From Bryum argenteum (Eukaryota > Streptophyta > Bryopsida > Bryales > Bryaceae): a DNA stretch of 64,000 nt. The translations under genes were made by a program, and so were the position numbers. Every line of letters begins with the position of its first letter. Within the stretch, counting starts at the first letter, position 1. Below the pieces are notes generated by a model. That model ran no database searches. It worked only from the letters and a program-made list of their open reading frames with translations, and was not told the origin of the DNA. This document shows positions 2,990 through 50,994 of this stretch, piece after piece. Where the stretch lies: positions 12,160,001 to 12,224,000 of the forward strand of contig CM073321.1 of NCBI GenBank assembly GCA_037043015.1. The letters run 5' to 3'.

Positions 2990-5900
2990 CCGACCTAAGT
3001 ATGTGATAGGCCATATACTATAAGGCAAATAAGTTTAAAACATTTATACATTAACCTTAGAATGTAGTTTTGAATAAGAAGGATGGGTTCATGAACCCGT
3101 ACTCCGCACTCCAACAACAAGGACTTACTGTCAAAAGCCGGACAGGGTTTAAAGACGGCGGATGAAAGCCGGAGTGGGTGGAAGGACCATAATGACGCGG
3201 AGTGCCAAAGACGATTCCGTACGAGGACGGTCATGATGGCCGACGGACAGGTTATGATGGCCGGATTTGAATCCGACCTTCCCTATACAACGCGACTTGT
3301 CGGCTCTTGTTGTTACCTGCCTTCTCGCTTTCCTGCTTTCTCGCCTTGTTGCGATCCTGCTTTCTGCCTTCTTGCTTTCTGTCCTACTGTTCTGATCTGG
3401 CCCCTGGCCGATCTTAACGCAGCGACTTGTTACTTTTTGTCGTTTTTCTTCCCGATGGCAGGATCAGCATCTGCTTCCGCTCCGGCGCAGGAGGAGCTCA
3501 ACATCTCCATCAAGTTGGTGCTTCCGACCATTCCGGCCGAGGAAAAAGAGAAGAAGGCCTTGATCAAAGACCTCGATCGGATGGGACTTTCCGGCATGCT
3601 GGACACCTCGTGGGGAATGCACGATACGGGGATGGTGCCCGACATAAAGACCAGCGCACCGAACCAGTTTGAGGGGACGGTCAGAGGCAAACCACCGACC
3701 TGGACGGCCGATCATTGGAGGGCGGTTTACGGCCCGATCGGAAACAACGGATTAGAGTTATGCGGCCGGAAACACAAGTGGGCAAAGACGGCCTTTCACG
3801 AAAAGCCGCAGAAGAATAACGGATACGCGGTGGAGGACTGCAAGGATTCGAGGGAGTGCGCGGGCGTAATGTTTCTGGCGCCGATAATACATGCAGAAAA
3901 GCCGCACCGCATCACCATCCGGCTTGCCAACATCATCGTGGGCTCGCTTTGTGGAGAGCGGGAGGTGGATTGGAGGATCGTCATCCACTATTTAGTCGCC
4001 CGGCTCGCGGAGAATGTGGGTACGAGCCGGCCGAGCTCCATTACCCCCTTTCTTTACGACTTGTATACAAAAAGGAGGTTCTGATAGAGGATGAGGAGTC
4101 GGCGTACAAGATGTCGTTGGCGGCTTAAAACAACGGCGTCTTGAATCCGAGGAGGACGTAGACAACAAGGCCGTCTACTCGGATGAGGAAGAGGAGGCCG
4201 GATCCGAAGATAATCGTACTTCCGTCCCAGTCCCCCACTGAGCGTCCGACCTCGGTCGGAGTTCAAACCGACCGCGGCCAAACTTCCACAGCCAGAGACG
4301 ATTACGAGGTCACAGCGAATTGGACAACTCCGATCCAGCCTAACGACCCCCGCCTCCGTCCGGCCGTATCCTCCCCAAACCCGCCGGACCCGATGATGAG
4401 GGCATGGCATCATTTTACGGAGGCCCGCACCACTTATTTCCATTATCAGGAACTAATTGCAAGGATGTATAAGGAGTTTGGAGTGCAGACTTTAATGGAG
4501 GTGAAGACGAAGTGGGACTCCAAGCTGACCGAGGAGCGGTATCAGCAATTGGAGAGGCAAATCACGAAGCCTACAATCAACAATAGACGCTTGAGGGAGA
4601 TGGTCAAGAAAAGGGAAGAAGAGCTCGTGACCGACCCGCAAGCACTTCAATCCGCTTACGAGCAAGTGGTCAAACTCGTGGAGGTTTGTGAGGTTTTGGC
4701 CGAGGTCCTCCAAAAGGCAAACCTGTTCGAGGCCTGAATCTTGCAGTCGGAAGTCTTCAAGGGAGAGACTTTCCGCAAGTTCTTGCTTGCAGCGAATACT
4801 TACTCAACTATGATCAAGAAGAGCAACAACGAAGTGAAGGTGGTGCTGGATTCCCTCCGCAAATTGCGGGGATGGCTTCAACTCCAGCCTTTACAGGTAC
4901 GCCAGCGCAGAATCCGGTCGGGAAGGCCGAGCCGGTCGAAGACAGATGCAGGACATTCGAGTCCGGCCAAGAGCAAGGTGAGGATAGAGGAAATCGAAGC
5001 CGGCCCAGCTGATTCTCCGGCCAAGAATACCCGCTCAATGGCGAGGCGGCTTATGAATGAGGAATGAGAGAAATCCCCAGCCGCTCAAAAGCTCCACGAG
5101 ATCGGCATCAAAGTCTCGGAAGAAGAGGAATTGAAGAGCGGTGCTGATATGGACGAGGACAAGAGTGACAAGAAGTTCATAACCGACAGGGGCAAGAGAG
5201 TCAAGGCGGGCCGGATTGCAGCAACACCCCTGAAACGGCCGAAGCATGGAGTGAGCTCAAAGCCAAAGAGGTAGGACGGATTCCGAGTGCGTAAGTTTGA
5301 ATCCAGCCTAGAGTTAGGAAGTCGGATTAGAACAATAGGTAGGATCTTTTTAAAGAAAGTCGCGTTTTGCGGAGTAGGCCGTGTAGGTGGGCGCCGCAAT
5401 CTAGTTAGGTTTCTAAGTTGTTGACTTAGAAGTACTTATAGGTGAATGTTTGATCACCTACAACATCCCTTACTTGTTAATCAACAACCTCTTATGCGCA
5501 TATTCAGTGTGATCCTTGCTCTGTCTCCCTTTTGAGGTTGAGTGCTTAGAATTCGTAATCTATTGTTTCTGAGTTGTAAGTTGGGGGTTAGGAATCCGGA
5601 TCCCTTGTTAGATCGTATCTCTGGAATTGAGGTCAGGTTGGGCGTACTAGTGAGTGCCTTGGGTCTTAAACTAGTCTAGGTGTTTGAGAGAGGGAAACTG
5701 CTGTGGTAAACACCTTACCGTCTGGAAGGGTCTGGGAGTAGAGTGTGCGAGGCCAAATTACTATCCGACGTCCAACTGCTACAGACTTGGGTTCCTCTGT
5801 AGTCTCAGGAGACGGATCAAGAACAAGACGTGATCGGAATACGTGTAGACGTCCTCTAACCGGATTCGGATCTCTTAGAGTTTGTCATTGTAGTAAGTGC

Positions 5901-8863: not shown

Positions 8864-9780
8864 TTAAACGTTCATGATTAATTGGTAAACGTCATAGATA
8901 GATATAAAAACGTAAAATAAAACCACATGTATGACCAATGCCGTAGGGCAACTACAGAAATTGAAAACATGGTCCTCCTTGTAAGGAAGAATGGGCACAC
9001 CTGCATACTCTTTAGCAACCTGCCTGATGGTGAATCTCGTGGCGAAAGACTTCAAAACAAAGACCTTAATGTGGAAGTTGTGAGTCTGCGAAATTCAATC
9101 CATGAGAGAGATTTAAATAATTATGAACGATGATTTGAATACAAAATGAAGGCCATACCGTTTTCACGTGAGGAAGTGTCGAGGCCATTGGCATGGTATT
9201 ATATCCCCACCAATCTTGCACCATTCGGAAATCAAAAGCCTTTGACTTGGTTTCCATAGCTTTCTTGACTGGACGGTCCTTGGGATGCATTACAAGTATC
9301 GCACCCTCGTCTGTCAACTTGTAGAAAACAAAAAAGAACACACTCTCGAAGTAGCTTTTTTCTCGCTTGTTCCATGAAGGGATTTCGACGGGCGACACGT
9401 CCGACACGGGTAAGTGCTCGGGAACGTCTACGTAGATGAGATCAATACCGGGATGCGGGTGTTTCGTGCCCATCTCCTTACATGGGTACTTCATGTCCTT
9501 GCAAATCGTTGGAAATCACAATAAATTAGACATGTTATAAGCGATGTGTTTCAATCAAAATTTCGGAAAGAAAATAATGTAATGTAATATTTAAGACATC
9601 ATACCTTTCTGATGTGGTTGATGATGTCTAAGACTTACGTGTCTCAGTCTTTAGTTTCATGAGCGGCATTTTGAACAGAAGCTCCAATATCCCCTTTTTC
9701 CAAGTACATTGAGAGAGAAATAGTAATCTCAGAAGACAAGCAGTCTCCAACATGCTTCGTCATGGATGATAGTTAGCATC
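8864..9780 (-). pseudogene. Locus B: truncated methyltransferase-like fragment
   Basis: Closest relative in the window is locus A. From about 9770 down there is SLSMYLEKGDIG, then an exon from about 9498 with DLIYVDVPEHLPV, IPSWNKREKSYFES and GAILVMHPKDR, then a donor after STLPHVKT. The next exon, THNFHIKVFVLK, continues to KEDHVFNF and then diverges, so PWRG and motif I are missing. DPPY is replaced by DVPE. The upstream ParB-like part is also absent. A DUF7869 remnant starts in the opposite direction 60 bases away, so this may be one side of an internally deleted two-gene element. Confidence 0.55.
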
Positions 9781-9839
9781 AGAAAAGCCTAAACCCTAAA
9801 TACCACTATTCTCACAAGACCAAAGCTACAGATTCCTAC

Positions 9840-11342
9840 ATGAGGGTGCCTCTTGCAGTGACGGGAATGATTGCTCATGGTCATGGAGATGTTAAATATG
9901 CCCACTATGGCCTGGACACATTCGCAAGAAATTCCAACCATACTATTGGATCCATTGCAAAGTTGCTACATGATCTTGAGGAGGCTCCGAAGATTTCTCT
10001 CACAAGCTATTTTTGGAGGAAAATACTCAGACTCCTTTTACTAAAGCTTTTTTAAAGGGTTTGGAGATTTGTTTGGACTCCCTTCTTCCTCTACAAGAGG
10101 TGGTGATTCTTGCTAAACCCTTGCCTCCTATATTGGTTTTGCAGGTAGATAATGCTTCAGATGACAATAAAAATAGATACGTTTTTGCCTTTTGTTTGTT
10201 GCTTGTATACAAAGGCATTTTCCGTGAAGTGTTCATCAACTTTCTCATAGTAGGGCACACACATGAAGACATAGATGTGAAGTTAAAGGCAATTAACTTT
10301 CAACTATTCATAGACTTCCAAAATCTCTCATGGATTGTAAGACACACCTTGTGATTCTACATTTGATAGAAGAAGTTTCCAATTTTAACGAGTTTGTTGA
10401 AGGTTATTTAGAGAGTGGTGGTGATTTTTTAGAATTCACTCCAAATCCCAACAATTCAAATTGCTACTGATGGATGGCCACTGATGGAGTACAAGATTAT
10501 GTGCTCGGATAAGAAGTGGTTGCCTGTGCATGGCAACAGAATCCGGTTGTGGTCAAAGACAGAGGACGGGCAACCCATGGTTCCGAATAGTGAACCCTTT
10601 CTGGTTGAACCTCGTGCGCTGCACACACTCCATGAGATCAAGAAAGGGTTGTACGGATTTATTTCTCACTGGACCGGAATGGAAAACGATGATCTCTCCG
10701 GAGAATTTAGGAACAGGAATGATCCTTTAAAAGAGTATTGGAAGGATGTTCGATTAGCTCTTAATGCGGAACTTGAGCCTCGGAAAAGGTTACTACACGA
10801 ATTTTGGCCGGCTACGAGGGTACTTCACGACGAGCCGGATTGTAGGCTCAGAGATGGGAGGTTCCAAGAAGAGGATGCAGAGGATGAACCCATTGTTGGA
10901 AGTAGACGTGATTGTCGACGCGCTTCATTCCATGTAAATCGCGATACTTTTGCAGGGTATTTTGTTGTAGTTTGCCCTGGGGACAATGACTTGAGGCCAA
11001 TGTGGCTGATAGGGCGATAACCAACCCCAGTCCACATCCAAGTCATATGCCCATGATCGAGATTCAATAATCTAAGCCTGCAGCTTCTAAACGACACATT
11101 AATATGGAAACATATGAACCATGGGAGTGATGGGACACAGAAAAGGGAATTCTTGGCGCAAAGATCGGTCTATGAATCCAACTTGGTCTAGTACAAATTG
11201 TATCATGACAGCTTGGAAGCTACGTTTTCGGGAAGGAACTTTAGATCCAAAGGTGGTAATACCTAAGCCTCAAATTGACATCATCAAGGCATCTGTTCAA
11301 GTGACTCAGAACAAGACTCTTCTGCAGCAGAATGATGTGTAG
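9840..11342 (+). pseudogene. DUF7869 transposase-like gene, 5'-truncated
   Basis: It enters mid-protein at VTGMIAHGHGDVKYAHYGLD, preceded in intact relatives by the first acidic motif. QVDNASDDNKN is the second motif and VGHTHEDID the third. After a frame break near 10280 the C-terminal half resumes at 10470 (MEYKIMCSDKKWLPVHGNR) and contains a small beta-rich module, FAGYFVVVCPGDNDLRPMW. The remaining C terminus is readable to 11342 (AWKLRFREGTLDPK) after another break near 11020, matching AWK-like ends of the copies at 41 kb. The protein is predicted to be nuclear and DNA-acting. It is inactive here. Confidence 0.6.
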
Positions 11343-11999: not shown

Positions 12000-13060
12000 A
12001 CGTTTCTTTGTTGGAGGATGGCCTGCCGTTATCGAGAAAAGGGAGATCATCACCGGAACCGTGGCTCCAAAAAAACCTCACATTCATATTTTGCAGGCAA
12101 CAGCTACACTGAAGACCATTGTTGAAAACTTGACAGATCTTATGCGTCATCATATGCGGTCCATTCCTACGGGAGAGAAGGTAGTTTCAAAATTCTTACC
12201 ATCTTTGTATTTATGGAGAGACACATTACTTGAGCTAAATGCTAGCAACGCTTTGCAGGGACTGCAACCAATATCTCCATCCTCATTGAGTAGGATACAC
12301 CAGAATTTCTTCCCAGAGTTCTATGCTAAGCCGAAAGGTAACACCTTCGCACGTTGTGGCGAATGTGATAAACTCAAGCAACTCCGCGCATCTAGCACTC
12401 TTAGTAGCCGAGCATGGATTCTTCATGATGCAAGGTTGACTCGCCATATTGCATCACAAAGGGCCTAGAAAAATCTTTATTACAGCAATCAGACTCACTT
12501 AAAGAAGAACCCTGAATCCTTTCTCTACATGATTCATGATAAAGTAGATCACTCCAAGACCGCCTCTCTCTATTTCTCCCAGAAGGGTAAAAGTACCAAT
12601 TCATATATTAAGTTACGTGTTTCAATCACCGGCATATTTGCTCATGGTCATGATGACATACGCTACACGCATTACAATCTTGATATCTACCCTACAGACT
12701 CAAATCATACCATTAGTTTGTTTGCTCAACTTCTTCAAGATTTGAAGGCACCTCCAAAGTCCTCTTCGAGAAACTTATTTACTAGTGAAAGAAGTAGCTC
12801 TCTTGCTCAGGCTATCCTAGATGGAGCTGATATTTACTTGGACTCGTTAGGACTTGTCCCAGCTGATCCGATTGCAGCAAAATCTTTACCTCCTGTTCTT
12901 CAAATGCAACTAGATAGTGCAACTGGCGATAATAAAAAGGGTTTGTTTTTGAGTTTTTTTTGCTTCTTGTTTGCAAGGGTGTCTTCCGAGAGGTCTTCGT
13001 AAACTATCATTTGGTGGGTCATACTCATGAGGATATTGATGTCCTGTTTGGAACTCAGGA
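12000..13060 (+). pseudogene. DUF7869 transposase-like gene, interrupted
   Basis: Reading starts without an ATG near 12010 (PAVIEKREIITG) and continues through SPSSLSRIHQNFFPEF and a CGEC zinc-binding-like pair. The frame then has TAG at 12466 but goes on, with IHDKVDHSKTA (first acidic motif), GIFAHGHDDIRYTHYNLD and QLDSATGDNKK (second motif). A frameshift in a poly-T run near 12955 leads to VGHTHEDID (third motif) at about 13015. Coding then stops abruptly at 13060, where GC-rich DNA begins. A hAT element has probably inserted there. It is homologous along its length to the copies at 41 and 50 kb. Confidence 0.6.
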
Positions 13061-13440: not shown

Positions 13441-13704
13441 CAACGGTTGTCGAGCATTTCAATTTCAAATTGCAAGGGTCATATTCAGAGTTGGATGGTA
13501 TATAAGAGAAGAGACATTGAGTCTCATTTCACTTCCAAATTTTGAACACTTTACAAGGGCTTTGAGCTGCATAATTCATTTTATGTGTACATTGCTTGGT
13601 AGGTATTGAGTTCGGAAGTGAGGATTTCCGTAAGGAACTCTTGCCATTTTTTCACGTCACGGTCCCACCACTCTTTATGACTTTGAGGCTTCCTATTTAT
13701 CAAA

Positions 13705-14614
13705 ATGGGCCCTGATCCATATGAGCCTTGGTTTAGAGACATCGAGAAGGAAGGCAAAGCGTCCGGATCCTTTATACAGTGCTCACTATGTCATGTAATA
13801 GTTTCTAAGAAGAAGAGTCGGAATTTGAGTCATTATGGGTACGAGAAGATTCCTGGACATAGGGATTCGAGTTCTGCCCTTTGCCCAAAGTTGCCTATGG
13901 AAATTAGGCAGTTATTTTTAAGATGTGGCGGGGAGTTCCCTCCATATAACGGAGAATTGGACGGATTTCTTGGTGAATGTTCTCTCACTCCATCCACGGA
14001 CGTCCCAGGTGCCTCAAAACATGACATTCCAGAAACCCCTAGGAGTGACTCTTGTGTAGGGTCCTCGCCACGCACCCCCATGAATTCAGAAAATCCTATG
14101 GTTGGAGCAACCTCAGCATCTTCCATCCTTTTGAGGGGAATTAAGGATATTCGCCCAATGTTTGGATCTATGAAGCAAACCAAGCAATCTTCAATTGAAG
14201 CTACTTTTGCAGAAGCGGATAGGCAAAAGTTGGATAAACTCTAGGCGAAATTTTTCTACGAAGCAAATATACCATTTTCTGTAGCCTGAAATGATGCATT
14301 CAAAGCTGCCGTCATGAAGACTGCTGGATTTTGAAAATCCTATGCTCCACCATCTTACCATGACATTCGGACAAGGTTGTTAGGAGAAGTAAAGACGGAG
14401 TTACAAAAGAAACTAGATAGTAGACGCTCGGAGAGCCTTCGGAAGTTTGGAGAAACTTTGACCATGGATGAATGGTCATCTGTGACTAGTCGCCCTTTGG
14501 TGTATGCAATGCTCGTGACTGAAGCTAGAGAGCTTTTTCTAGGTCCTGTGGATACTACTGGCATAGAAAAAAATAGCGGTGTACATGTCATCTCTCATGT
14601 TGAAGTACATAAAA
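13705..14614 (+). pseudogene. hAT transposase, 5' half (BED-like finger and DUF659-type region)
   Basis: ATG at 13705 opens a frame with a BED-like zinc finger (CSLCHVIVSKKK, then NLSHYGYEKIPGH). A low-complexity linker follows. The same frame continues past stops at 14242, 14287 and 14332 into ARFFYEANIPF-like sequence, YHDIRTRLLGEVKTELQKKL, and TLTMDEWSSVTSRPL with LGPVDTTG, a hallmark of plant hAT transposases (first catalytic Asp region). Coding breaks at 14614, exactly where the 25-bp inverted repeat of a second element starts. The rest of the transposase resumes at 25298. DNA-binding and catalytic roles are those of the family. This copy is dead. Confidence 0.7.
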
Positions 14615-14639
14615 AACACGCAATTAAGCAATTATGCAC
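14615..14639 (+). repeat. Left terminal inverted repeat
   Basis: A 25-bp sequence containing CACGCAATTAAGCAATTATG. Its exact reverse complement ends at 25297. Weaker similarity continues inside both ends (AGTGCA and ATGGC spaced alike). Confidence 0.8.
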
Positions 14640-15480
14640 TTTGCCAAGTGCACTCAATGGCATGTCAAAACAACAACATTTTCCTCCAAAATGAAAAAAA
14701 ACAACAAAAATTCCACACAAAAAAAAAATTTAAATGTGGAGGCACTAAACTTAAACTAACGAGAAATAGTATTTTTTTAATAACAAATTTGTTGCTAAAT
14801 CATGTTTTATTGCTTTGTAAATACTACCAAATTATTATATTCAAATATTGCCAACATCTATTTTATTATTTTGTGTACCATATAAATTTTTGGAATACAA
14901 ATCCCAATGGATCAATACGAAGGACAACGTCACGTCTTAGAGTGCAAAAATTGAAATTTAAAGAATTTCAAAGATTCAATTTTGTCCTTGAACTTCCTAT
15001 AGTGTTTCTTTTTAGATTCAATGCAATTTTGATTATGAACTTCTACGTTGTACATTGCTATATGACATTTATATACTATTTTTGGCATTTATACAATAGA
15101 CATACTTTATAAGAGATAAAAGGCCAACATGTGCTATTCAACGAGAAAATATGTAGCATCTCACTCTATATTATATGAAAATCCATACATAAAATTCATA
15201 AACGTACTTTAGGAACTGATAGTAAATACTATAATATAACATGCATAATACTATAACCAAACATCTCATACTTTACTCAAACATATCAATCAAACCTAAC
15301 ATGCCACCTAAACATCATATTGACTTGCTACTTATAAATCTCTGATGCTCTAATCATCCTCCTCCATTGTCCTACCGTCGCGCGCATAGGCCTCATGTAC
15401 CATACGATCCACCACCAAACGACACTGGGGATCAATAGAATCTTGAAGAAGATGGATGGACGCACTCTCTCGTGCGTGAA
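14640..15480. other. AT-rich subterminal region of the TIR element
   Basis: Poly-A and poly-T runs dominate. The only long plus frame (14579-15112) is AT-rich and lacks protein character. From 15361 the sequence becomes more balanced as it approaches the 3' end of the minus gene. Confidence 0.5.
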
Positions 15481-15483
15481 TCG

Positions 15484-16566
15484 CTACGGCTCACCGTGGC
15501 GAGTGTACCTTATGCCATCGGTGTTATAGTAGAAGCCGTCTCTAAATGTCATCATTGGTGCAAAGGCCTCGTTGAAAGCTATGGTGTCCGCTGATTCCGT
15601 AGATTGTGGAATGGATGGCACCATTGGTCTCGTTTGAATTGGAGTATCTAGAACCACCTCTGGTATCTCTGATCCTTCCTCAAAGCCATTAGGTTCCACA
15701 GACGAATGAAGCCCGTCGTCACATGAGTTATGATCAGGCGGTACATCTCGTAGTCGTCTTTCGCGCGGTGTCCGTACATTTGCTAATGTGTATGGTGCTG
15801 GAATAGAAGTATCCGCTTCATCTCCAAGCTCATCCTCGTCACTACCGCCTTCCTCTGAACCTATGTTCATCGGATCTTCACCCTCGGAAATGCCAACGCT
15901 GGTGCTCCTTGTTGCACCTGTCATCTCAGGGATCTGAAATTGTCCTTGGAAGTTGTCAAACAACTTTGTATACAAGAAGTTTAGCCTTTCCAGGCTATCG
16001 TCAATGACAATGATCTCCGATCCATGGAAACCTCCATGAAGGATTGTCGGAATGGCCGTTGTAATGTTATACGCATCCAAACCCCAACCAATTGGCAAAT
16101 ACGCATCCACCAGTCTAGAGAGCTCGGATGGCGATCGCTCGAGTCTATCACCCTCCGACGGTTGATGTGTCTCACTCCATTGATCGTGAAATACAAGTGG
16201 TAGTGGACGGTCCCCAGAAACATAATTCTGGTTGGGGGAAGTATCAACAGGGTGTTGCATATGAACAACAACACCTCCAAATGGTTCCACCGCTTGCTGT
16301 AACTGACCACCCTGTGTAAAGTTGAGGGCATACTGATCAACCGAGTTTGCGCCAAATGCCCAACATCCATGTCGTTGAGTGCCACCCTCGGGAAGTTTGA
16401 GCTTCGCGAACAACTCGGCATTAGCAAACACGGCTGGTGGTAACAGTAGAATACTGTTCCATCGTTCAACGCCTGTCATCCACGCTGACAATTGTGCAAT
16501 AACTTTGGTGAATCGCTTCTTCTTCCTGGGGACCGTCTCCATGCCTTCCCCACCACACGCCGACAA
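15484..16566 (-). CDS. ParB/methyltransferase-like gene of the TIR element, C-terminal segment
   Basis: A 360-codon frame in the same direction as the ParB-like segment upstream. It has FHDQWSETHQPSEGDR, then LVDAYLPIGWGLDAYN and HGSEIIVIDDSLERLNFLYT. The pattern of a strand ending in D, a glycine-rich turn, a helix and a second strand ending in acidic residues resembles motif I and the following strand of class I SAM methyltransferases, in the position that module takes in loci A, C and D. The catalytic motifs themselves are not recognisable. The rest is an acidic low-complexity tail (SEEGGSDEDELGDEAD). Its ATG is probably internal, since a frame break separates it from the segment ending near 16596. 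Confidence 0.4.
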   Translation of the reverse strand: MSACGGEGMETVPRKKKRFTKVIAQLSAWMTGVERWNSILLLPPAVFANAELFAKLKLPEGGTQRHGCWAFGANSVDQYALNFTQGGQLQQAVEPFGGVVVHMQHPVDTSPNQNYVSGDRPLPLVFHDQWSETHQPSEGDRLERSPSELSRLVDAYLPIGWGLDAYNITTAIPTILHGGFHGSEIIVIDDSLERLNFLYTKLFDNFQGQFQIPEMTGATRSTSVGISEGEDPMNIGSEEGGSDEDELGDEADTSIPAPYTLANVRTPRERRLRDVPPDHNSCDDGLHSSVEPNGFEEGSEIPEVVLDTPIQTRPMVPSIPQSTESADTIAFNEAFAPMMTFRDGFYYNTDGIRYTRHGEP

Positions 16567-16595
16567 TCAACAACCCACAAGTACGATTGTGTCAA

Positions 16596-17753
16596 TCACG
16601 GACATCGTGGATGAAATAATCCTTCCCAAGCTCGAACCATAAGATGATCTGGTGTACTGGTCTGAGTTGGCCTTCGAACTTGTAACACCCACTTCCATGT
16701 GACGGTAGTGGCACCACCTTCATCTGCTGATGCTTCCACTTCTCCATGTGTTCTTGTTGCAATGTCCTGATAGTGAACCTTGATGGAGGTGGGAATAAGT
16801 TCACTTATGTCTGCCAACTTGGACACCTTCTCTCGTGTAGGTTTAGCCCATGCGGCTTTTGTGTCTTTGGCCAAGTCCTTGCCAAATGCATCAATTTGCT
16901 CCTTGCCCCCGGGAAAATAATTCCGTACAGATATGTGGAAGAACTCTTCCATGGAATTAGGTGAGCACTCTTTGTTGGACACCATTAACCAACGAGTGAT
17001 ATTAGCGACCGCTTCTTGTCTCATGATCCGGTCAACTGCACCTGCAATAGTACGGGGATCCCTAGACGCATCCTTGATGGCGTGAAAGTAATATGATTGT
17101 CGAGGTCTGCGGTTGTCCTCCCCCACTGGCTTAGCTGCACAAGACTTGACTAGCCGTAGATAAGCAGACTGTGGAACCACATTGAGCGGCCTCAACCAAT
17201 TCATGGTCATTCGCTTCCGATGCTCCCGTACATCCACAGTAGGATCTAGGTTGTTCTTGTCTGCAAACGCCTTCCACTTCTTCTCCTCTTCCTTGCTATA
17301 AAAGAGATAGCCATCTTCGTAGTCCTTGCACACTTGAAGGATAGCTTCGTAACACTCGCGCCGAGGATTCCACGCATGAATGGTCAAGTCATGCATCTGC
17401 TTTGCCAACCTCTTGATTGTTATACCTTTGTTGCCCTCAACAAGGTTCTTCTGCACTGCATTAGCCGCACACACCAGAGCTTTAGCCCTGCGTTCATCGT
17501 CTGCACGAACCAAGCTATCAGGCTTCCCATACAACTCCCAAATCTCGCGTAGCTTTCTCAAGTCCTCATCCATGGTGGAATATTTTGTCCTATTCCATTC
17601 CTTCTTGTTGACCCGCGCGGACTTCGCTAGGTACAATGCAGGATCATCGTATATGGACAAATGTTGCCTCCCGCATTTCAAAGATGTTAACAAACTCAGC
17701 ATGTGAGAGTTTGTGTTGGGCAACCTCTTCCTTCGCAAAATTGCAGGCTGCAA
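16596..17753 (-). CDS. ParB/methyltransferase-like gene of the TIR element, middle segment
   Basis: This 385-codon frame overlaps the end of the ParB-like frame. The natural join lies near 17655, where YDDPALYLAKSARVNKKEW follows the ParB-like motif as VWNEDKPIIRRISTFYNK does in locus D. The body is helical and rich in Trp, Arg and Lys (KLREIWELYGKPDSL, RLAKQMHDLTIHAWN, YFHAIKDASRDPRTIAGAV, TRWLMVSNKECSPNSMEEFF). This corresponds to the helical middle region of loci A and C. Near 16700 another frame (GCYKFEGQLRPVHQII, LWFELGKDYFI) looks more protein-like than the annotated end, so a second frame break is likely. Exact function unknown. Confidence 0.45.
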   Translation of the reverse strand: MQPAILRRKRLPNTNSHMLSLLTSLKCGRQHLSIYDDPALYLAKSARVNKKEWNRTKYSTMDEDLRKLREIWELYGKPDSLVRADDERRAKALVCAANAVQKNLVEGNKGITIKRLAKQMHDLTIHAWNPRRECYEAILQVCKDYEDGYLFYSKEEEKKWKAFADKNNLDPTVDVREHRKRMTMNWLRPLNVVPQSAYLRLVKSCAAKPVGEDNRRPRQSYYFHAIKDASRDPRTIAGAVDRIMRQEAVANITRWLMVSNKECSPNSMEEFFHISVRNYFPGGKEQIDAFGKDLAKDTKAAWAKPTREKVSKLADISELIPTSIKVHYQDIATRTHGEVEASADEGGATTVTWKWVLQVRRPTQTSTPDHLMVRAWEGLFHPRCP

Positions 17754-19164
17754 CTATGTGTTGTCCATCCACTGGCTCCCAAATGATCCTCCCCTGAAGC
17801 CAACACAACTGAGAGTGTGTTGTACCGTGAATAGACGCTAATCCGTGTGTATCAAATATGCGTTGGAACTCTCGTTGTGCTCTTTCGAGGGGGAATGACA
17901 CCTCTTCTCGCCGAACCACACCATCGTCAGTAGTGACATCCACAATGTACTTGATCGGACGAAGAACCAACTTGCTCACACAAGTCTTGTTCTCTGGATG
18001 TCTCATAAAGTCATAAACCTCTCTAACTCTCTTTGCAGAGAGTACCCGATGGTTTGTCAAAGGACTCTCCACTTGGATAATCTTGTCGATCTTCACCTCG
18101 AATACAATGTCCCCCCATAGTGATCCTTTCGCAATTTCTGCTTGAGTAGGTATCGGTGCTAGGAACTTACTTGACGTTGAGGCCTCCAACGCCATCCTCG
18201 GTTCCGACTCTGAATCCTCTTCGTCCTGGTCCGATACTTCTTGAAACTCGTCCTCCACTGCCGATACATTCAATGAAGAACTCGGTACATAAGCAGATGC
18301 TCCATCTTTGGCCGGAAACCTCATGGTTGTAGACCCACTACCCCTACCACGTGCCCTCGATCCTCGTCCAGTTGACCTCGCACCACTTGTAGCCACATTC
18401 GACGATCGTCCACCTGAACCAGATGCTATGTCGCCTCTCTCACGTCGTGGCCGCTTTGAAGGACGTCCTCTTCCACATAGAGGAACACTTCCTACAGGCG
18501 GCTCAGTAGTCGCGATACGCTGGACGGGCACAGATTGTGCAATCTGCTGAAGTGGCTGGTAATCCAACTCACTTCCAATAACATAACTACGGTGAATTGG
18601 ATCCGTCTCTTCTGGTTCAGCTGGTGGACCTTGTGATGTTGCATGTGTTGGATCCGCCTCTAGTAATGCTTCGTACTTAATATGGGCATCCATAAGAACC
18701 ATTGCGCGTGCCACATCCTCCTGTGATAACCCTAGACAATGTGACATATGCTCCTGCCTCGCTGTACGTACTGCAGGAGCGATATTCAGCCAAAATTTCT
18801 GCAAGGTATTGAGAAATTTCACGGACCCAGAACTTGCAAGCAAAGATTCTGGAATGGATGCAAGAAGAAGTTGTCTCGACAGAGAAGTCTTCTGCATTGC
18901 TTCATCAGCATCTGGGACACACATCACATATATCATGTCAGACGATGGGCGGGTAGTAATTGCTTGAATCTCGCCAAAACGCTTGCCTAACGCTGACGTA
19001 CGGTCCCTTATTTTAAAAGGTTGGTGCGTCATCCACAAATAAGGCTTTGAGGGGTCCTCTTCTACAATCCACCATCCGTGCTTCTCCCATGTCTTGTCGA
19101 TTTTGCAGTTGGTTCCGACGTTGCGAGGCATGGCAACCTGATCATCATTGGAACACAATATCAT
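17644..19164 (-). CDS. ParB-like N-terminal segment of the TIR-element companion gene
   Basis: A 506-codon frame; MPRNVGTN (ATG about 19131) is an equally good start. Residues 1-170 are unassigned (TWEKHGWWIVEEDP, helical LSRQLLLASIPESLL). Then comes a basic AT-hook-like linker (GRGRPSKRPRRERGD, RGSRARGRG) and an acidic stretch. The C-terminal ~160 residues resemble the ParB N-terminal/nuclease-like fold: VFEVKIDKIIQVESP, a helix, LVLRPIKYIVDV, and WEPVDGQHIVAACNFAKEE, where VDGQH-xxAA matches the family's DGxHRxxAA except that H-R is H-I. In ParB relatives this fold binds or cleaves nucleic acid or CTP; which applies here is unknown. Confidence 0.5.
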   Translation of the reverse strand: MILCSNDDQVAMPRNVGTNCKIDKTWEKHGWWIVEEDPSKPYLWMTHQPFKIRDRTSALGKRFGEIQAITTRPSSDMIYVMCVPDADEAMQKTSLSRQLLLASIPESLLASSGSVKFLNTLQKFWLNIAPAVRTARQEHMSHCLGLSQEDVARAMVLMDAHIKYEALLEADPTHATSQGPPAEPEETDPIHRSYVIGSELDYQPLQQIAQSVPVQRIATTEPPVGSVPLCGRGRPSKRPRRERGDIASGSGGRSSNVATSGARSTGRGSRARGRGSGSTTMRFPAKDGASAYVPSSSLNVSAVEDEFQEVSDQDEEDSESEPRMALEASTSSKFLAPIPTQAEIAKGSLWGDIVFEVKIDKIIQVESPLTNHRVLSAKRVREVYDFMRHPENKTCVSKLVLRPIKYIVDVTTDDGVVRREEVSFPLERAQREFQRIFDTHGLASIHGTTHSQLCWLQGRIIWEPVDGQHIVAACNFAKEEVAQHKLSHAEFVNIFEMREATFVHIR

Positions 19165-20276
19165 AATGGTTAATATGGTGTAATTTAGAGTCTATTTGAC
19201 AATTGTTTTGATTTCTATTCAATAAAATATTGATAACTTATACCAAAATTCACCATCCGACCACATGGTTCATGTGAATATAGACAAACATAGGCCATTT
19301 TGTTTGTTTTGATTCTAATATGACTCCATGTGGAAGTTGTTTTATGATTGACGACTCTTTAGCCCCGAAAAGCCTAGGCCATTATTCTTCAAGAAACACT
19401 TCAAATCTGTCACTATCAAAAAGTGGCTTCAAAATCTAGTTTTAGAGTGAAATTTAAGACTTCTAATCCTAGAATCTTAAAATAAACATTGATATAAAGC
19501 CACCAAATTTTTTAGGCTACTATGCATCGGAAGGATTAAAATATTATAGCATTTGAAATCATAAGAATAATTCATTTGCTTAATTGTATTTAGTGGTCTA
19601 GCACACTTTAATTTCACTTGGCTTAAAAAAAATTCACTATACAAGGTCTAACTTCTTTAAAATCATGATTGGCATGATCATGTTGGTTACCTTAAAACCA
19701 ATTTCTAGACATGGAAAAGGTGTGTAGCATATTCAAAACAAATATACAAAGGATCGAGATTGAAATTATTTGACAAAATTTTATGCCACATTTTAATCTT
19801 TTGTGAACTCAAGATGCTTTAGAATGAAAATCCAATATGATTGATAAGAATTTATTTATCACATAGAATTTTCGCTAGAAAAAAAAAAAAATTTAAATGA
19901 AGATCTATAGGTTTTATGTAGAAAATAGTATTTTTTTTCTTTCCCTTGACCAAAATGTGTGAACACGTTTGACTGGGGTTAAATGCTCTTTTTACAGTGA
20001 AGACAATTTTAGAAATTTGGAATCGTAAAAGAAGGTAATATTTTTTAGTCTCAAACGACTGTATGTGAAAGATGTTAGTTCTACAATATCTACATTAATA
20101 TTTTTACTATCATGTGTTGCTAAATGTTTTCATTTTTCTTGTTCTTAAGCAAGTAACTATAATGTATGACGGGTATCAATATGGGCGGGTATCCCTCATA
20201 GGCGGGTATCAGACGTTTGAAATGGCTTTAATATAGTAAATGGGATGTTTATTGGAGTTCACTTGGTTGATTGTTT

Positions 20277-20304
20277 CAAGGGGTGTGCGCGCGCACACCC
20301 CTTG
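20277..20304. repeat. Perfect 28-bp palindrome
   Basis: CAAGGGGTGTGCGC joined directly to its reverse complement, with no spacer. The centre is an alternating GC tract. It could form a cruciform or mark the edge of a small nested element. Confidence 0.8.
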
Positions 20305-20656
20305 CAATCTCTACTAATTTTTTTATTATTTTTATTTTTAAAAGATTTTTAAATTTTTTTAGGGTTTAAGGTTTTAAGATTAGGATTTTGGTGGCTTTGG
20401 TGGCGGCTGCATGGCTGCAACAAAGACCACAAAGAGGATGAAGGGAGGAAGACGAAGATTTTAACATATCGAGTACAAAGTGGACAACTTGAATAGTAGC
20501 GTACCTGTACAAGAGCGAACAAGAACCCAAAATGCACGCCGCAACAGTAGCAACAATACCAATGATAGCAATGAGGAATAGCAACAAGATCAGCAAGTAG
20601 CAAGCATCGATTCGATAGCAACAAAGAAGCGCGATCCGGTACAATAGCAAAGAAAT

Positions 20657-20748
20657 GATTCGGTACTAGAGCAAGCAGCGATTCGGTACTAGAGCAAGCA
20701 GCGATTCGGTACTAGAGCAAGCAGCGATTCGGTACAACAGCAGCAAGC
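20657..20748 (+). repeat. 23-bp tandem repeat, about 4 units
   Basis: Units begin GATTCGGTACTAGAGCAAGC at 20657, 20680, 20703 and 20726. The last is imperfect. Confidence 0.85.
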
Positions 20749-20837
20749 GATAAGGAGAATCGGCAAAAAGATTTTTGGTTGCAACAAGTCACGAAACTCT
20801 CCTAGTGCTCTACAGATCGTCCTAGCAGCGTTCTTGA

Positions 20838-20985
20838 GAAACACGAGCAAGAGCGGAGGAGGAAGAAAAGGCAATAGCAACCTGCAGAAACACGAGCAAG
20901 AGCGGAGGAGGAAGAAACGGCAACAACGACCTTCAAAAACACGAGCAAGGGCGGAGGAGGAAGAAACGGCAAGTGTGCCAGAAGA
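20838..20985 (+). repeat. 49-bp tandem repeat, 3 units
   Basis: Units share ACACGAGCAAGAGCGGAGGA, beginning near 20841, 20890 and 20939. The open frame across them is repeat-driven. Confidence 0.8.
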
Positions 20986-21008
20986 TCAGAAGCGGGGAGG
21001 TCAGATGG

Positions 21009-21062
21009 AAAAAAAGAGAGGAGGTGGTAGAGGTGTTCGCCCGGGCACCTCTACCACCTCCT

Positions 21063-21107
<45 letters not shown>
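21009..21107. repeat. 27-bp-arm hairpin followed by poly-T
   Basis: Left arm 21009-21035 (purine-rich, containing GAGGTGGTAGAGGTG) pairs perfectly with 21046-21072 across a 10-base loop. A run of about 44 T follows. The loop region GTGTTCGCCCGGGCAC recalls the GC-rich centre of the palindrome at 20277. Confidence 0.8.
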
Positions 21108-21109
<2 letters not shown>

Positions 21110-21997
21110 GAAATAATGTCATTTTTTAGTTGAGGGATGTCTAATCAAAGGTATTTTTATTGCTGTATTATAGCAATTTTGTTGTATGTTAAGTTTTTTA
21201 AAAAACTTTCTATAATTATGAAAACAATTGAATGATTTTAGTAGAAGGCTAAATAATGTAATCTACAAGTTATTGTTTCACTAAATTCTTGAAATTTTGT
21301 TGTATGTTGTGAATCATTTTTTTAATTCTTAAAATTGACTGAAAATTAAATTTTTTTTTTTTTTTTTTCTTTCAAATTCCAAGATGACTCAAAATGTAAG
21401 TTACTAGTTGAATAATCTCTAACGCACAAGTGTTTGCATTGCTAAATTCCGGTTTATTTGTTGTATGTTTCCAGGTCTATATATTTTACATCTATTGAAG
21501 AGCATGTCTAAGAATGGACATGTGGTGTGAACACCACTTGGTTCTAAGCCCTATAAAGCTAACTCATTGAGGTGGGAATAATTTAGTTCCAATTTGATTT
21601 AATATTTTTTGTTCTTCTATAAAACTTTGTTCCTACTTGAGTGCAATTGAATCATTGATTGCAAGTTTTATTCAACTTTCAATTTTATAATGTAGTAGAA
21701 GTTAAAGTTAAAGTTTAAAATTACCATATTTTCCAAACAATAATATATTGCATTCATACAAGAACACATGATAATTCTATCCATCGCTATGATAATAGAT
21801 CATACAATGAATATTGCAAATATTATTTTTTCTTGCAAATTTAATTGAACCTATAAGTAAGTTGTAACTTTCTATAATCATTGTCATTGCAATAATTATT
21901 CCTTTATCCTAAACAATACCACCATCTTTGTGGTTTTATGCACGCTCAAAGCATGATGTAGGATTTATAATAGAAATTGCCATAGGTACAAAGTAAA

Positions 21998-24709
21998 TTG
22001 ACGCCATTTCATGTTGTCATTGTCTTTTTTTATTTCAATCAACGATTTTTAGCAATGTATTATGAAACGCAAACAATCCAATTCCTAAGGTGTAACATAG
22101 TCTTGGACAAGGTATCAAACATAGATGGGCTTATTCATGTCAGAGCGGCCCGACGTCCATATTCTATGCAAAATAGAAGAAGCAGAGATTCCAGGGAGAC
22201 ATCTTCTAGAGAAGGTATATCTACAAAGGTATCTCTTCTAAGCGTGCAAAGGGCAATAGGGCGAGGAGGATGCAAACAAAATTGTTTGAGAGACATTCAA
22301 GAACGGTATCTATTGGACATGCGTTATAATGCGTGGGCTTCTACTTATGCAATTCGAAGTACTTGGATGAGACAAATGCTGCTTTCTTTTTATACACGGA
22401 CGGAACGTTTCCAACGAGATAAATTTGTCACAAAGTTAGATGGCAAACAAGTTTGCAATGCTTGTTATGCTCTGGGCATTGGATATTCACAAAGACGGTT
22501 TAAACAACTGAAGAAGGAGTGTTTAATATATGGAAGAGTGGCAGCGATTCACGGTAACAGCCTTTCAAACCCGCTTCGGGAGAGCACTAGAATGTCAGCG
22601 GCAGAGGCCTCATTTAAATCATTTGTGGACGAAGCTGGTTGTCCTCAACCTCATCGTTCAATTTTTCGTAAGGATGACAACGAAGTGGTGCCTCTTATTC
22701 TCCTGCCCATGAATACTCAGAAGTCTGATATATTCAATTACGTGAACGAGGAGGTGAAGAGAGTTTGTAACGGAAAAACCATTTCAATTAGCTTGTTCCG
22801 GAGGATGTGGCGCATCAGATATCCTCACGTCCAGGTACCCCCATTCTCGAGGTTTTCAAAGTGTTATCACTGCTGGGAGTATAAATGTGCCATGGAGGGA
22901 ACCACGAATGCAGATGCTCGGATCAAAATAAAAGAGTTGTTTATGATGCATCTGCGTATTCAAATGGAGGAACGGAGGGATTATTGGATATTTAAGAGGT
23001 CGTGCTATATCAGCCCGGAGTTGTAAATGTGCATCATCGTTGATGGCATGGATCAAAACACTACCATGGTACCGAGAATGCGTCAAACCGTGAAGAACAT
23101 CGAGTATCGGTTTGTGAAGACCCATTTGTGTGGAGCCCTCGTACATGGGATTGGTTTATACTGCGATGTGTGGTTCGGCGCGCACCACAAACATGATAGC
23201 AACTAGGTGGTGAGCACATTGTTGCACGTGATAGGAGATGTGAAGAGGAGAAAACGCTTTTTGCCTCCAACATTACGTATCCAAGCGGATAACTGCACAC
23301 GAGAGAATAAAAACATTTACATGTTGGCTCTATGTGTTTCATTGGTGGGATTGGGTTTTTTTCAAGAGGTGGAGCTCTCTTTCCTTATAGTGGGCCATAC
23401 ACACGAAGATATCGACCAACGCTTTAGTTGTATATCTAATGTGTTGAAGAGGTCGGACATCGACTCATTGAAAGAAATGCTTAGTCTAATAGAACAAGGT
23501 ACATCCATAACAGAGGCGTTTGTTAGCGCCAGACTCTTAGAAAATGTGTGGGACTGGAAGTCCTTCATAACCCCTCACTTACTGACGGGTGGGGACTCTT
23601 TGGTTGGCATAACCTTTCCGCACCACATGCGATTCTATATGGACAATCGAGAGGGGGTCGGTAAGGTTCGAGTACAACACAAACATTATAGCAAGGATAA
23701 ATGGGGACCTGAGTTAGGGACAAAAACGTTGCAGTCGCTACCAAATAAAGAAGAACGACCATCGTTTGCAAAGGTGTTTGCAGCTGATGAAAGGGAGTTG
23801 AAGGCATTGGATGACTTTATTGCATACAAAGAAAGGTGCATTCAAAGATTCCAACATCCGGAAAAAAATGGTGAAGCGAAAAGAGAGGCCGAACATTTGA
23901 AACTATACCTAGCCGAATTTCCAAGCAAAGATCGTAGCAACGAGCATAGTTCTTCACAGCTTTGGCCTTCAGAGGTATTAGAGACATCACCTACTATAGA
24001 TGCATCAATAGATGTTATTGACGATCGAAATGAATCAAACCACGAGATTACTATTGTGGACCAAATAGTGGCGATGCTTCCAAATTCTGAGGCTAGAGGA
24101 TACTTTGGTCATCGAAGAGAGAGGCCACCTAACCAAGCAGTGCGTAGGGCACAAAGAACGGCTCGCAGTCACATCTTTGATGGAACCGAAGAAAGAGCGG
24201 TATCAGAAGGTACTGACGATCCTTTTCCCCAATTTGATCCTCAATCCGATATCCTTTCTGGACAATTTGTAGCCCTCAGTGTTGATCGTGCAGAAGTAGA
24301 CGAGGGTGTTCCATTTTATTTAGGGAAGGTGATTGAAGACGGAAAAGGCCGGAATAAAATCAAGATGAAAGTTTGTTGGTATTGGCCAATCATACGAGGG
24401 GGAGTTGTTGACGGACCGAGATCCTCTTTACAACGGTATGCAAACTGTTTGGATTCATTGTGGGAGCCATCTGGGGAGAATCACGATTGGATAGAGAAAG
24501 AGGCATGTATTTTTTCATGGGCGGACGAACCAGAAAGAATCATGTGTGGCCATAGTCAGGGGAGAAACCGCAATGTCTTTGGAGTGAAGGTTCCAAGCAA
24601 CATTTGCATTATCCAATCTGCGAAGGCCCACATATTAGAATATATCGCAATGCAAACCCAAGCTATCGACGATGACCGGTTGCAAGCCGCATTAGATATT
24701 AGTACGTAG
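21998..24709 (+). CDS. DUF7869 transposase-like gene of the TIR element
   Basis: One frame of about 900 codons with only two stops, TAA at 23024 and TAG at 23204. The true start may be later than 21998. Order: a zinc/HTH-like segment (VCNACYALGIGYSQRRFKQL), a second CYHCWEYKC pair, then three acidic motifs: IIVDGMDQNTT, QADNCTRENKN and VGHTHEDIDQRFS. Their spacing and context fit the Asp/Asp/Asp-Glu core of RNase-H-like transposases, which is my inference. A linker with acidic runs leads to a C-terminal beta-rich module (VPFYLGKVIEDGKG, KMKVCWYWPI) like BAH or Tudor readers. It is the most complete DUF7869 copy here and the likely mobiliser of the element. Function would need readthrough or the stops being errors. 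Confidence 0.65.
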
Positions 24710-25272
24710 TCCATGTGTTTTGTGTACACATGGTGTTTCTAAGTGTATATACGTACTAGATAGTACAAGATTGCAAGGATTATTTTCAGACGTGTTGTTG
24801 CGATGGACATATGGGTTGAATTTAGTTGTATTATCAGTTATAAACATAACTTGGTATACGTTTAGAATCTGTGTATTTAGATACTTTTCTACCACATATA
24901 TACAAAGCACAATATAGAGTATATTTTTATTAAATGTCCATTGGAACAATTTGGTGCCTACTTTTATTAACAGTTTGGTGCTCGCGTCATTTTGCTCACC
25001 AAAAATATATTAACTATAATCTACACAATTTGTAGCATATACTAAGCATTTCAAATATCCCTGGACAAAAATATTTGTATTATTCACATGGATTTATACC
25101 AAAAATATGTTCACAATGCCATTAGAAGTCTTTTTATATTACCACTTCTGACAATACACAATATTCTTTGCAAAACACCTTTTTTTCCAGAAAAAATCAA
25201 GTTTAAAAATAAAAAATCCATTTTTGCAAGCAATAGCCATCGTAGTACCGAAGTGCAATTTTAAATAGCCGG
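24710..25272. other. 3' flank inside the TIR element
   Basis: AT-rich, with no convincing frame. It ends at the right inverted repeat. Confidence 0.45.
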
Positions 25273-25297
25273 GTGCATAATTGCTTAATTGCGTGTT
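25273..25297 (-). repeat. Right terminal inverted repeat
   Basis: Exact reverse complement of 14615-14639, immediately followed by the resumed hAT coding sequence. Confidence 0.8.
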
Positions 25298-27295
25298 AAA
25301 AGAAGTTGAACTAGAGAAAATTGTCCAAGTATGCGCAGACAATGTTTCTGTAATGCTCAATGCCTCCAGAATAGTCCTTGAGAGATATCCGCACATTTTT
25401 ATGCAAGGGTGTGCGAGACATATAATGGACTTGTTGTTGGAGGATTGGGGAAAGGCTGGATGGATGGCAAAAACTTTGTTCATGGCTAATTGAATGTTCA
25501 AGTTTATCAAGAGGTAACAAATGCTCCTACCTGTGTTTTGTAAACACAAGGCGAAATTCAGCCTACTGATGCCTGGGAAAACAAGATTTTCTAGTCAATT
25601 CATAATGATAGATCGCTTGTTGGAGGTCAAGGAATGATTGGAGCAAGTTGTTGTCGACCCTATGTTCACAGCCTATGCCTCGAAGAAGAAGGTATCTGCT
25701 AGGGATAAGCTTATATTCTCCCGTAAGGTCAAGAAGGTGGTGTTGAGCGATGACTTTTGGGAGCAATGTAAAAGATTACGGGATATGGTTGCCCCCGTAG
25801 TCTACGCTCTGAAAGAATTCGACGGCAAGGCTCCTAGTACGGGCAAGTCTTGACATATCATGCGTGATCTTGAGAGACATGTCCATACTTTGCATGCACC
25901 GCCCATCTCATTGGAACCACTTGAGGTGGCCACCGCAAAAGAGGAGTTTTACCATCGGAAACGGCTCATGACAACTGATTTACATGGCGCGGCTGCACTT
26001 TAAATCCTTATTTACTACATGACCAAGAGTTAGCTGACGATCCCAATCTTACAACAGCTTGCAAGCGTGTTTGACAAAAACTATGTCCCGCGGAGGATTA
26101 TGCAGACGTGGTGAATGAATTTCTTGCGTTTCGAGTAAGGGGTCCACCATTCCATGACATGCTGGAGTCTAAGACTCAAAAAGTAGCTCCACATGCATGG
26201 AAGGAGTTTGAGGGTGCTTGTGCTAAGCTCCTCTCTCCAATTGCAAAGCGAATACTAGCGCAGACCGTGTTCTCGTCCGCTTGCGAACGCAACTGGAGTA
26301 GCTACTCTTATGTTCACGACAAGAAATGGAATTGGTTACTACCGGGGAGAGCTGATGGCTTGGTCTACATATATTCCAACTCGAAATTGCTTGCAAATGA
26401 TAAGTTGAGTGACGATGGGCGGTGGTATAGAGAGAACTTGGATTTAGAGGAAGATTAAGTACATGACAACGATGAGGAAGCTGTCGAGGACGAATCAGAG
26501 TCTGATGACAATGATGTTTTTGAATTTGGCGATGAAGATGATGATATGACTTTCTTCCCCGCTTCAAATGATGAAGATGCTCCAAATGTTCATGATGGTA
26601 ATGGTGATTTTATCGCTCATGGTCTTTCAGTGGATGATCTAGATGATGAGCAGCCGTTAGCCCGGTTAATGACACAAGGTGGCATGGAGAAATCAAATAA
26701 CGTCCTACCTGTTATCGCTACTGGTTTACGATTGGAAAAGGAGGCGATAGATGCGAAGACCACTGCGTGCAACACAACTGCGGGCACTATGAGCTCTGAT
26801 CCGGTCGCGGAGAATATTGCATCCGGTAGTAAGGATCAGGTATCTGATCAATGTGCTACTCCCCGCGCTTTATTTCAACCCTCTAATACAAGGGTTACGA
26901 CAACCTTGGAGAAATCGTCTAAGGGTTTAGTATCCCTTTCAAGAGCCAAATATGGGAGCATCTCTAGTGACTCTGATGTACCCTTGGGCAGGTATTTAAA
27001 GAATGCCAATGTTCTTCGTACTGCGACGGGGTTACAGCACATGCTTGGCACTTCCAAGTCGCATAAACGAAAATCTCTAACGGTTCCATTTGTTCCGCCT
27101 AAAAAACCAAAGATCCCTGTTAATCTCCTCGAATTTGATACTTGGCATAAGTATGGGAATATACAATGTCCAGAGTATAAACCCAAGATCAAAGAGGAGG
27201 TTCCAAGCGATTATGAATATGATCCTACGGGGTCTAGTGGAGCTGAAGTGAAGGGAGATAGCGATTATGAGCAATCCTCTGGTTCTGATAAGTAG
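25298..27295 (+). pseudogene. hAT transposase, 3' half with dimerisation region and acidic tail
   Basis: Coding resumes with LKEVELEKIVQVCADN, GCARHIMDLLLEDWGK and FSRKVKKVVLSDDFWEQCK. After breaks near 25490 and 25850, at 26108 comes the hAT C-terminal dimerisation hallmark: WKEFEGACAKLLSPIAKRIL, FSSACERNWSSYSYVHDKK and LVYIYSNSKLL. A TAA at 26456 is followed in the same frame by an acidic region and 250 more codons ending SGSDK, so one stop separates the tail. This tail has RKSLTVPFVPPKKPKIP, nuclear-localisation-like. Together with 13705-14614 it makes one transposase disrupted by the TIR element. Confidence 0.7.
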
Positions 27296-34498: not shown

Positions 34499-35170
34499 CT
34501 ACATCGCAATGAGAAAGGGTGTACTATTGAAACTAATATGATCTAATATAACGTGAAAACTACCCATCGATAATTGAGTCCTTAATAATTGAAATTTGTA
34601 GCTCAAGTATGCACATCTTGGGATTAACGGTTTCAAGACAAAATCTTGGCTTCCAAGCTCTCGTATTCGCCCTACGAACGTAGGATCAATAGCAAATTCC
34701 TCGTGCAATTCTCCGTTATCTTCAAATCGATCCCCTTCACTTGGAGAGTACCTAGAAGTAGGCCAAAATCCATCCCTAAACATTCATGGAGCAGGGACGG
34801 GTAAATCTAAAGCCTCACGAACTGCTTTCCAAAAGTAAATGAATTGTTCATGATGTCTATGATAGTCGCCTATTTAATCAGCATCCGCCAAAGACTCCCA
34901 CAAGCTCATAAAACCACTAATTTCCTTTTGAATGTCTTCTATATTCTTCATTTCATTTGGAACTAGTAATGTTGGATCTCCAAGAGGAACCTGAGGTTGA
35001 CCATTTGGCATAACTTTCCTCAACCTAACCCCAACACTATCTTGAGGAAGCCACTCGCTATCCGTACACAGAATTTTGTAATGCATCAAAGGTCAGCCGG
35101 AAGCATCTTTAAAAAACCTAAATTGTTGGGCACTAGTATGCCCAGATAACGCCTCGTCGCCATTACAAAG
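34499..35170 (-). pseudogene. DUF7869 C-terminal fragment
   Basis: From 35165 down: GDEALSGHTSAQQFRFF, MHYKILCTDSEWLPQDSVGV and, past a stop at 34872, WPTSRYSPSEGDRFEDNGE. All have close counterparts in the copies at 41 and 50 kb (GHTKAQQFKFF, KYKVSCTGEDWLP). The acidic catalytic motifs lie upstream and are missing; retroelement-like DNA begins about 35215. It lies tail-to-tail with locus C. Confidence 0.6.
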
Positions 35171-35214
35171 GTAACCTTTGATGAACGTCTTGAAATCGGG
35201 AACTTACACAATTA

Positions 35215-36310
35215 AGTGAGGAATAACCCAGTTTTCGTTCGGATAACCCTTTTAGTTGGTAAAAGAGGGTTTCCAAGACAACAACCCCGGTATTCGTCCA
35301 CGGAGATCCTGTGAAGTGCAAGTCAAACAAGTCCCACCAGTTAGCCAACCCGGATTTGCACTATCCGGGTATTTCTTGATCGCCCACGTACCCTTTATCC
35401 TGTCCTAATGCGGCTGCTCGGATAGGAGAGGGAGGGGGTTTTTGGTTTAATTTAACCTCTGTATTCACTCAGAGGGATTTTCCCGGACTTAGTTAAGTGA
35501 TGGGATTAGGCCACTCTTTCTGTTGATTATTGTGACCGGAAAGGTCACCAGGTTCCTTCTCTCTTAACCTTGTTTAGGTACTTTCCTTACACCACCCTCT
35601 ACGCTCGAGACTCTAGCCCCGCACGTATGTCACTAAGGAAGTATCCGGTTCTCCTACTACCCGGTTATCAAGACTCACTATTCGAGGCAGTAGATCCCGG
35701 GTTACCGAAATGGGGTGGTGCGGCTAGCCCGCAGTTCACCGCTAACACCTACCGACGAGCCTGCCTCTCCGGGTTTCAGCAGTCCAGGGGAACTCAACGG
35801 AGAGTTCTCTCGGGAGTCAGTTGAGCGACAGGAATCCCTTTCTGGTCGCTGTGATCTTAGGTGCTGAAAGAACAAACCGGACTTTTCTCTCAGTGCGAGG
35901 TGTCGTTCACCAGCCGCACACCTCCCCTATCGGCCTCTCTGCCTTCTTTTCTCCTCTCCGTTCAACAGATGGAACCGCTCTCTCTTGCCCGGACAGCAAG
36001 GGCCCTCTGGACTCCGCAAAAACCCCAACCTGATATGCAAGACAGGAAACAAGGAAGCTTACAAAACAAGAGACGAGGGGGAAAAGAGGCGTCTTTGCGG
36101 CGGAATTAGGGTTTTGTGAAAGCACGGAAAAGACCCCGAGGAGTCTTCTTCCCTCGGCTAAGTAGTCGATCCTCCCTGGGAGAAGAGGACAAAACTCGAC
36201 GCTCGAGAATCTTTCTACATCTAACCCTGTCAGTCGTGCGCCGCTATTCTCCTACCCTCATTTAATACTACTTATGCTACCCAAGTCTGACTAGCCTCGG
36301 TCAGAGGTAT
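35215..36310 (-). other. Non-coding end of a retroelement
   Basis: GC-richer than its flanks, with no long frame. GAGTTCTCTCGGGAGTCA near 35800 recalls 29838-29860. It follows the minus-strand gag-like genes and may be their 3' untranslated region or LTR. No matching second terminal repeat was recognised. Confidence 0.3.
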
Positions 36311-50992: not shown

Positions 50993-50994
50993 AG

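Follow-up and report, generated by a model that had tools for sequence, protein, structure and literature searches.

The Sola superfamily of DNA transposons was reportedly first described by Bao et al. in 2009. According to the parts of PMC10741241 consulted, Sola elements possess a DDD transposase, generate 4-bp target duplications and end in terminal inverted repeats (TIRs) of 11-1124 bp. They mostly measure 2-9 kb, with some over 15 kb, and are present in the moss Physcomitrella. The element Sola1-1_Ec32 of Ectocarpus, 21.5 kb in size, combines a transposase gene with a gene on the opposite strand, whose protein of 1104 amino acids (aa) unites a methyltransferase domain with a ParB-like one (PMC12477816, as excerpted). 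Here, we analyzed a stretch of 64,000 nucleotides of the Bryum argenteum genome (C1:12160001-12224000, hereafter the window; assembly of 258.8 Mb in 25 contigs). A 10,683-bp element bounded by perfect 25-bp TIRs was found at positions 14615-25297, within a copy of a hAT transposon. We regard it as a large DNA transposon of the cut-and-paste type, present here as a defective copy and most likely a Sola1-like member of the Sola superfamily.

Element Ends, Target Duplication and Empty Sites

An initial annotation, made from the letters of the window alone, had proposed a 10.7-kb DNA transposon with two genes and perfect TIRs, inserted into a hAT gene. This outline was borne out. The two TIRs were complementary at all 25 positions. 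Allowing up to 3 mismatches, their 23-nt core occurred in the window only at the two element ends, with 0 occurrences expected from 100 shuffles. Genome-wide, 351 matches to the core were obtained with up to 2 mismatches (173 forward, 178 reverse), versus 0 and 0 for the reversed-letter control. A chance inverted repeat was rejected on the basis of these counts. Using each element end as DNA query, the best 40 of 441 and the best 40 of 328 candidates were scored. For one end, 39 non-self copies started at query positions 101-116 (window position 14615 corresponds to query position 116), and for the other end 39 non-self copies finished at query positions 593-611 (window position 25297 corresponds to 598). 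Copies sharing the element ends were 97-99% identical across about 590 bp. The termini read AACACGC, and the final bases of the left TIR open a subterminal TGCACTT....AAGTGCA motif. EnSpm/CACTA transposons have CACTR termini and 2-3 bp duplications; with AACACGC termini and 4-bp duplications the element was not assigned to them.

The target duplication was examined in all 15 copy pairs that could be formed, i.e. for copies with both exact TIRs among the fetched loci. Perfect 4-bp duplications were found in 14 of the 15 pairs, compared to 5 of 210 mismatched pairs, which provided the consistent duplication that the annotation had asked for. The window copy is flanked by AAAA at both sides. Full copies paired in this test measured 11.5-13.0 kb, and shorter derivatives also occurred, one of 4,511 bp having the same ends and a duplication.

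For the empty-site alignment the element was taken out together with one AAAA copy, 4 bp being the sole length tried. Each of the nine fetched hAT paralogues gave a single alignment with the joined flanks, which covered about 2.1 kb at 92-94%. These alignments were gapless at the junction and showed 2-20 gap openings over their whole length; in L067, one of the paralogues, a gap of 1 nt occurs 11 nt from the junction. Domain scans identified Dimer_Tnp_hAT in the right flank (E 5e-7) and DUF659 in the left flank (E 1.5e-4, below the family cut-off). The open frame around the insertion site spans 400-973 codons in eight of the nine paralogues and 215 codons in the ninth. The joined flanks of the window copy stay open for at most 95 codons, and therefore the target hAT copy is itself degenerate now. 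Of the expectation that the hAT gene joins across the element, the joining of the DNA held true, but an open reading frame was not retained. A hAT element carrying passenger genes was rejected, as the flanks yielded hAT domains, a scan of five element frames yielded none, and the target duplication comprises 4 bp; hAT transposons generate 8-bp duplications. The element is a real cut-and-paste DNA transposon inserted into another transposon, and the transposon was probably active recently.

The Two Divergent Genes

Two divergent genes had been predicted inside the element, encoding a DUF7869 protein and a ParB-like protein, and both were recovered. The product of the plus strand gene matched DUF7869 with an E-value of 8e-43. 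For its predicted structural model, all 50 PDB rows listed were integrases or transposases. The catalytic core reads IVDGMD / IQADN / HEDID. Based on the predicted RNase H fold and the conserved aspartates, the protein looks like a DDD transposase, and it is almost certainly the one that carries out cut-and-paste transposition. With the DDE/D enzymes of the mariner and retroviral integrase type it shares an RNase H-like core with acidic residues ending strands 1 and 4 and starting the helix after strand 5. In contrast, identity amounted to only 8-13% in the structural rows listed, and the element described here carries an accessory gene. Target duplications of mariner and retroviral integrases differ in length from 4 bp.

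The window copy of the DUF7869 gene is without the portion corresponding to codons 1-260 of a 1125-codon frame on C5. Compared to two full copies of 11.6 and 11.7 kb, which are likewise frame-broken, about 930 bp are missing near position 22122, which removed the 5' part of the gene. Interior indels between copies were numerous, and some of them may be assembly errors.

The pieces of the minus strand gene in the window correspond to portions of residues 2-1369 in another copy, where the gene forms an open frame of 1402 codons; long homologues comprise about 1200-1490 aa. A ParB/sulfiredoxin fold was recognized by structure prediction and fold comparison only, as no significant sequence match was obtained in Pfam, NCBIfam or PDB sequences. 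The same holds for the comparison with ParB, Noc, KorB and sulfiredoxin fold proteins, whose motif arginine is, judged by eye, absent here. Moreover, the ParB-like gene belongs to a eukaryotic transposon and is not a chromosome partition gene. A DNA-binding accessory role is what we expect of its product with good confidence.

The ParB-like protein had also been credited with a methyltransferase-like tail. While the ParB-like domain was supported by fold prediction, the tail emerged from none of the comparisons. No Pfam or NCBIfam family scored over its cut-off. Alignment with hhalign against methylases gave probabilities of 0.2% for the whole protein and 0.4% for the tail, measured against a shallow alignment of 4 sequences (E. 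coli YhdJ and enzymes of Gordonia phage Petra, Acinetobacter phage MD-2021a and Pseudanabaena phage Pan3). A ParB-methylase fusion was also sought in six phage records: none of the 4 of their proteins that were scanned contained a ParB domain at E <= 0.01, all being PF01555 methylases, one with an additional LAGLIDADG domain. The tail may have descended from a DNA methyltransferase and since degenerated. Between the divergent genes a hairpin with perfect 27-nt arms and a 10-nt loop adjoins a run of 41 T, and the length of this part differs among element copies. The coordinates of all features are summarized in Table 1.

Table 1. Positions of the element, its genes and the surrounding transposon remains in the window.
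Feature	Position	Strand	Remarks
Left part of target hAT copy (stretch tested)	13701-14614	+	Empty-site alignment, domain scan
Left 4-bp target site duplication (AAAA)	14611-14614	.	Empty sites and copy pairs
Left 25-bp TIR	14615-14639	+	Sequence complementarity
Accessory ParB-like gene	15484-19164	-	Frame-broken; three open pieces 17644-19164, 16596-17753, 15484-16566
C-terminal region labelled methyltransferase-like, unconfirmed	15484-16566	-	
Stretch homologous to P0078 residues 334-503, ParB/sulfiredoxin fold	17598-18108	-	Spans two open pieces
Intergenic region of divergent genes	19165-22111	.	Tandem repeats 20627-20751, 20837-20972; hairpin 21009-21072
DUF7869 transposase gene	22112-24706	+	5'-truncated, two in-frame stops
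Right 25-bp TIR	25273-25297	-	Sequence complementarity
Right 4-bp target site duplication (AAAA)	25298-25301	.	Empty sites and copy pairs
Right part of target hAT copy (stretch tested)	25302-26600	+	hAT dimerisation domain in frame 26108-26455
Second-lineage DUF7869 remains	9732-11008, 12004-13052, 34640-35227, 41079-43759, 49395-52008		tblastn versus L085 frame

Gene Pairing and Families in the Genome

A total of 76 ParB loci was derived from 114 matches in the genome. Among the 150 DUF7869 matches listed, at least one lay within 20 kb of 39 of these loci, while 1.7 pairs were expected under random placement. The two genes were oriented divergently in 37 of the pairs and convergently in 2. 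The remaining 37 ParB loci had no DUF7869 neighbour among the same listed matches. Further copies with the same ends, which the annotation had suggested to look for, were found. A second family shares the 25-bp TIR, is 77% identical at the DNA level in the best-matching piece of its DUF7869 gene, and contains both genes as long open frames of 1402 (ParB-like) and 1125 (DUF7869) codons. This family (L063/L064, C5:21304571-21318121) shows an extra TIR-like stretch inside the element, and the TIR-like sequence GCGTGCAATTAAAGCAAT immediately inside its left end. In a further family (L077) the protein is 51% identical to P0078, and 400 bp at the L077 3' end, used as DNA query, yielded 14 strong places.

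A second DUF7869 lineage was detected in the window outside of the element, where tblastn with the frame of 980 codons at locus L085 (C1:10458000-10467999) gave five matches. One of these remnants (12004-13052) stops shortly before the hAT copy, so that there may be three nested levels of insertion. No ParB match was found in the 10 kb around L085, nor beside the five window matches. At L085, positions 4628-5165 right upstream of the DUF7869 frame are densely filled with direct and inverted repeats, which could be subterminal transposase-binding repeats of this lineage.

DUF7869 was found in none of 14 control genomes. Viral contigs contained no confirmed relative of the DUF7869 or the ParB-like protein (one short pattern each). 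In bacterial and archaeal genomes, a single contig with a DUF7869 relative was identified (L086, CAILMA010000604.1, 5162 bp, from a metagenome-assembled genome of an uncultured Bacteroidetes), with 30% identity in the best segment covering query residues 204-421. This contig is possibly misbinned eukaryotic DNA. With a 28-nt pattern of the plant-type TTTAGGG repeat, 1221 overlapping matches were counted genome-wide (0 for the reversed control), and 997 of these lay on a single strand. Arrays of at least 4 units were present at many internal places, the first 100 listed being scattered over C1.

Superfamily Assignment

Three features described for Sola in the consulted parts of PMC10741241 were found in the element: a DDD transposase (by prediction and alignment), a 4-bp duplication, and a TIR whose 25 bp fall within the range of 11-1124 bp. 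The report of Sola in a moss adds to this agreement, while the full copies of 11.5-13.0 kb exceed the size of most Sola elements. The closest described counterpart found, Sola1-1_Ec32, is also large and combines a transposase gene with an opposite-strand ParB-like gene. It differs in that its 1104-aa protein has a methyltransferase domain recognized by the authors, whereas here the tail was not recognized and the ParB fold stems from prediction, and in that the host genome here carries TTTAGGG repeats. The gene pair had been thought to match no known superfamily. This view is weakened by the fit to Sola and to the published Sola1 layout: the combination of a DDD transposase, 4-bp duplications and a ParB-like gene on the opposite strand agrees with Sola, above all with Sola1-1_Ec32 (PMC12477816), so that the pairing is not unprecedented. 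Apart from that source, no other link of ParB to a eukaryotic transposon was found in the literature searched, which does not imply its absence elsewhere in print. Judged by structure and layout, with Sola transposases compared by description only, the element probably belongs to Sola and is Sola1-like.

Alternatively, DUF7869 might define a separate DDD cut-and-paste superfamily that shares the 4-bp duplications with Sola and independently gained an accessory gene of the same type. The name DUF7869 was not met in the literature searched, and Sola was compared here by description only. Both points leave room for this explanation. We nevertheless consider it unlikely, as all three Sola features were present and the closest layout found was that of a Sola1 family, as far as the excerpts of both sources go. 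Even more doubtful is the extended version, in which DUF7869 transposons form a widespread eukaryotic superfamily of their own that keeps a ParB-type clamp with a non-catalytic methyltransferase tail across diverged families of the plant-type lineage. If it were true, the clamp would spread over the element DNA and shield it or bridge its ends without methylating it, and a ParB partition-like machine would have been reused by a eukaryotic transposon.

Since both genes reside within the same TIRs, the ParB-like protein could in principle be the recombinase and the DUF7869 protein a passenger, but this is highly improbable given the predicted DDD RNase H fold of the latter and the second DUF7869 lineage, which lacks a ParB match around L085 and at the five window matches. 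That inverted repeats and hAT flanks result from chance or an assembly artefact, as the many interior indels with their possible assembly errors might suggest, can practically be dismissed in view of 351 TIR matches versus 0 in the control, nine of nine empty sites and 14 of 15 target duplications.

Proposed Mechanism and Implications

For a Sola1-like element, the following course of events is proposed. The DUF7869 protein would bind the TIRs and the subterminal TGCACTT/AAGTGCA motifs, cut the element out, and join it to a target opened by a 4-bp stagger. The ParB-like protein would bind to the element DNA and perhaps spread along it as an accessory factor, which may counter host silencing or help to bring the ends together. 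The window copy keeps both ends while its genes are broken, so that it could move only in trans.

The results suggest a likely function for an uncharacterized Pfam domain, with DUF7869 acting as a DDD transposase. Furthermore, algal transposons have been described with an accessory gene of the ParB type, and such a gene stays here with one transposon lineage across several families, in a genome whose telomere repeats are plant-type. The role of the ParB-like protein is open to testing, since many copies exist and some have long open frames.
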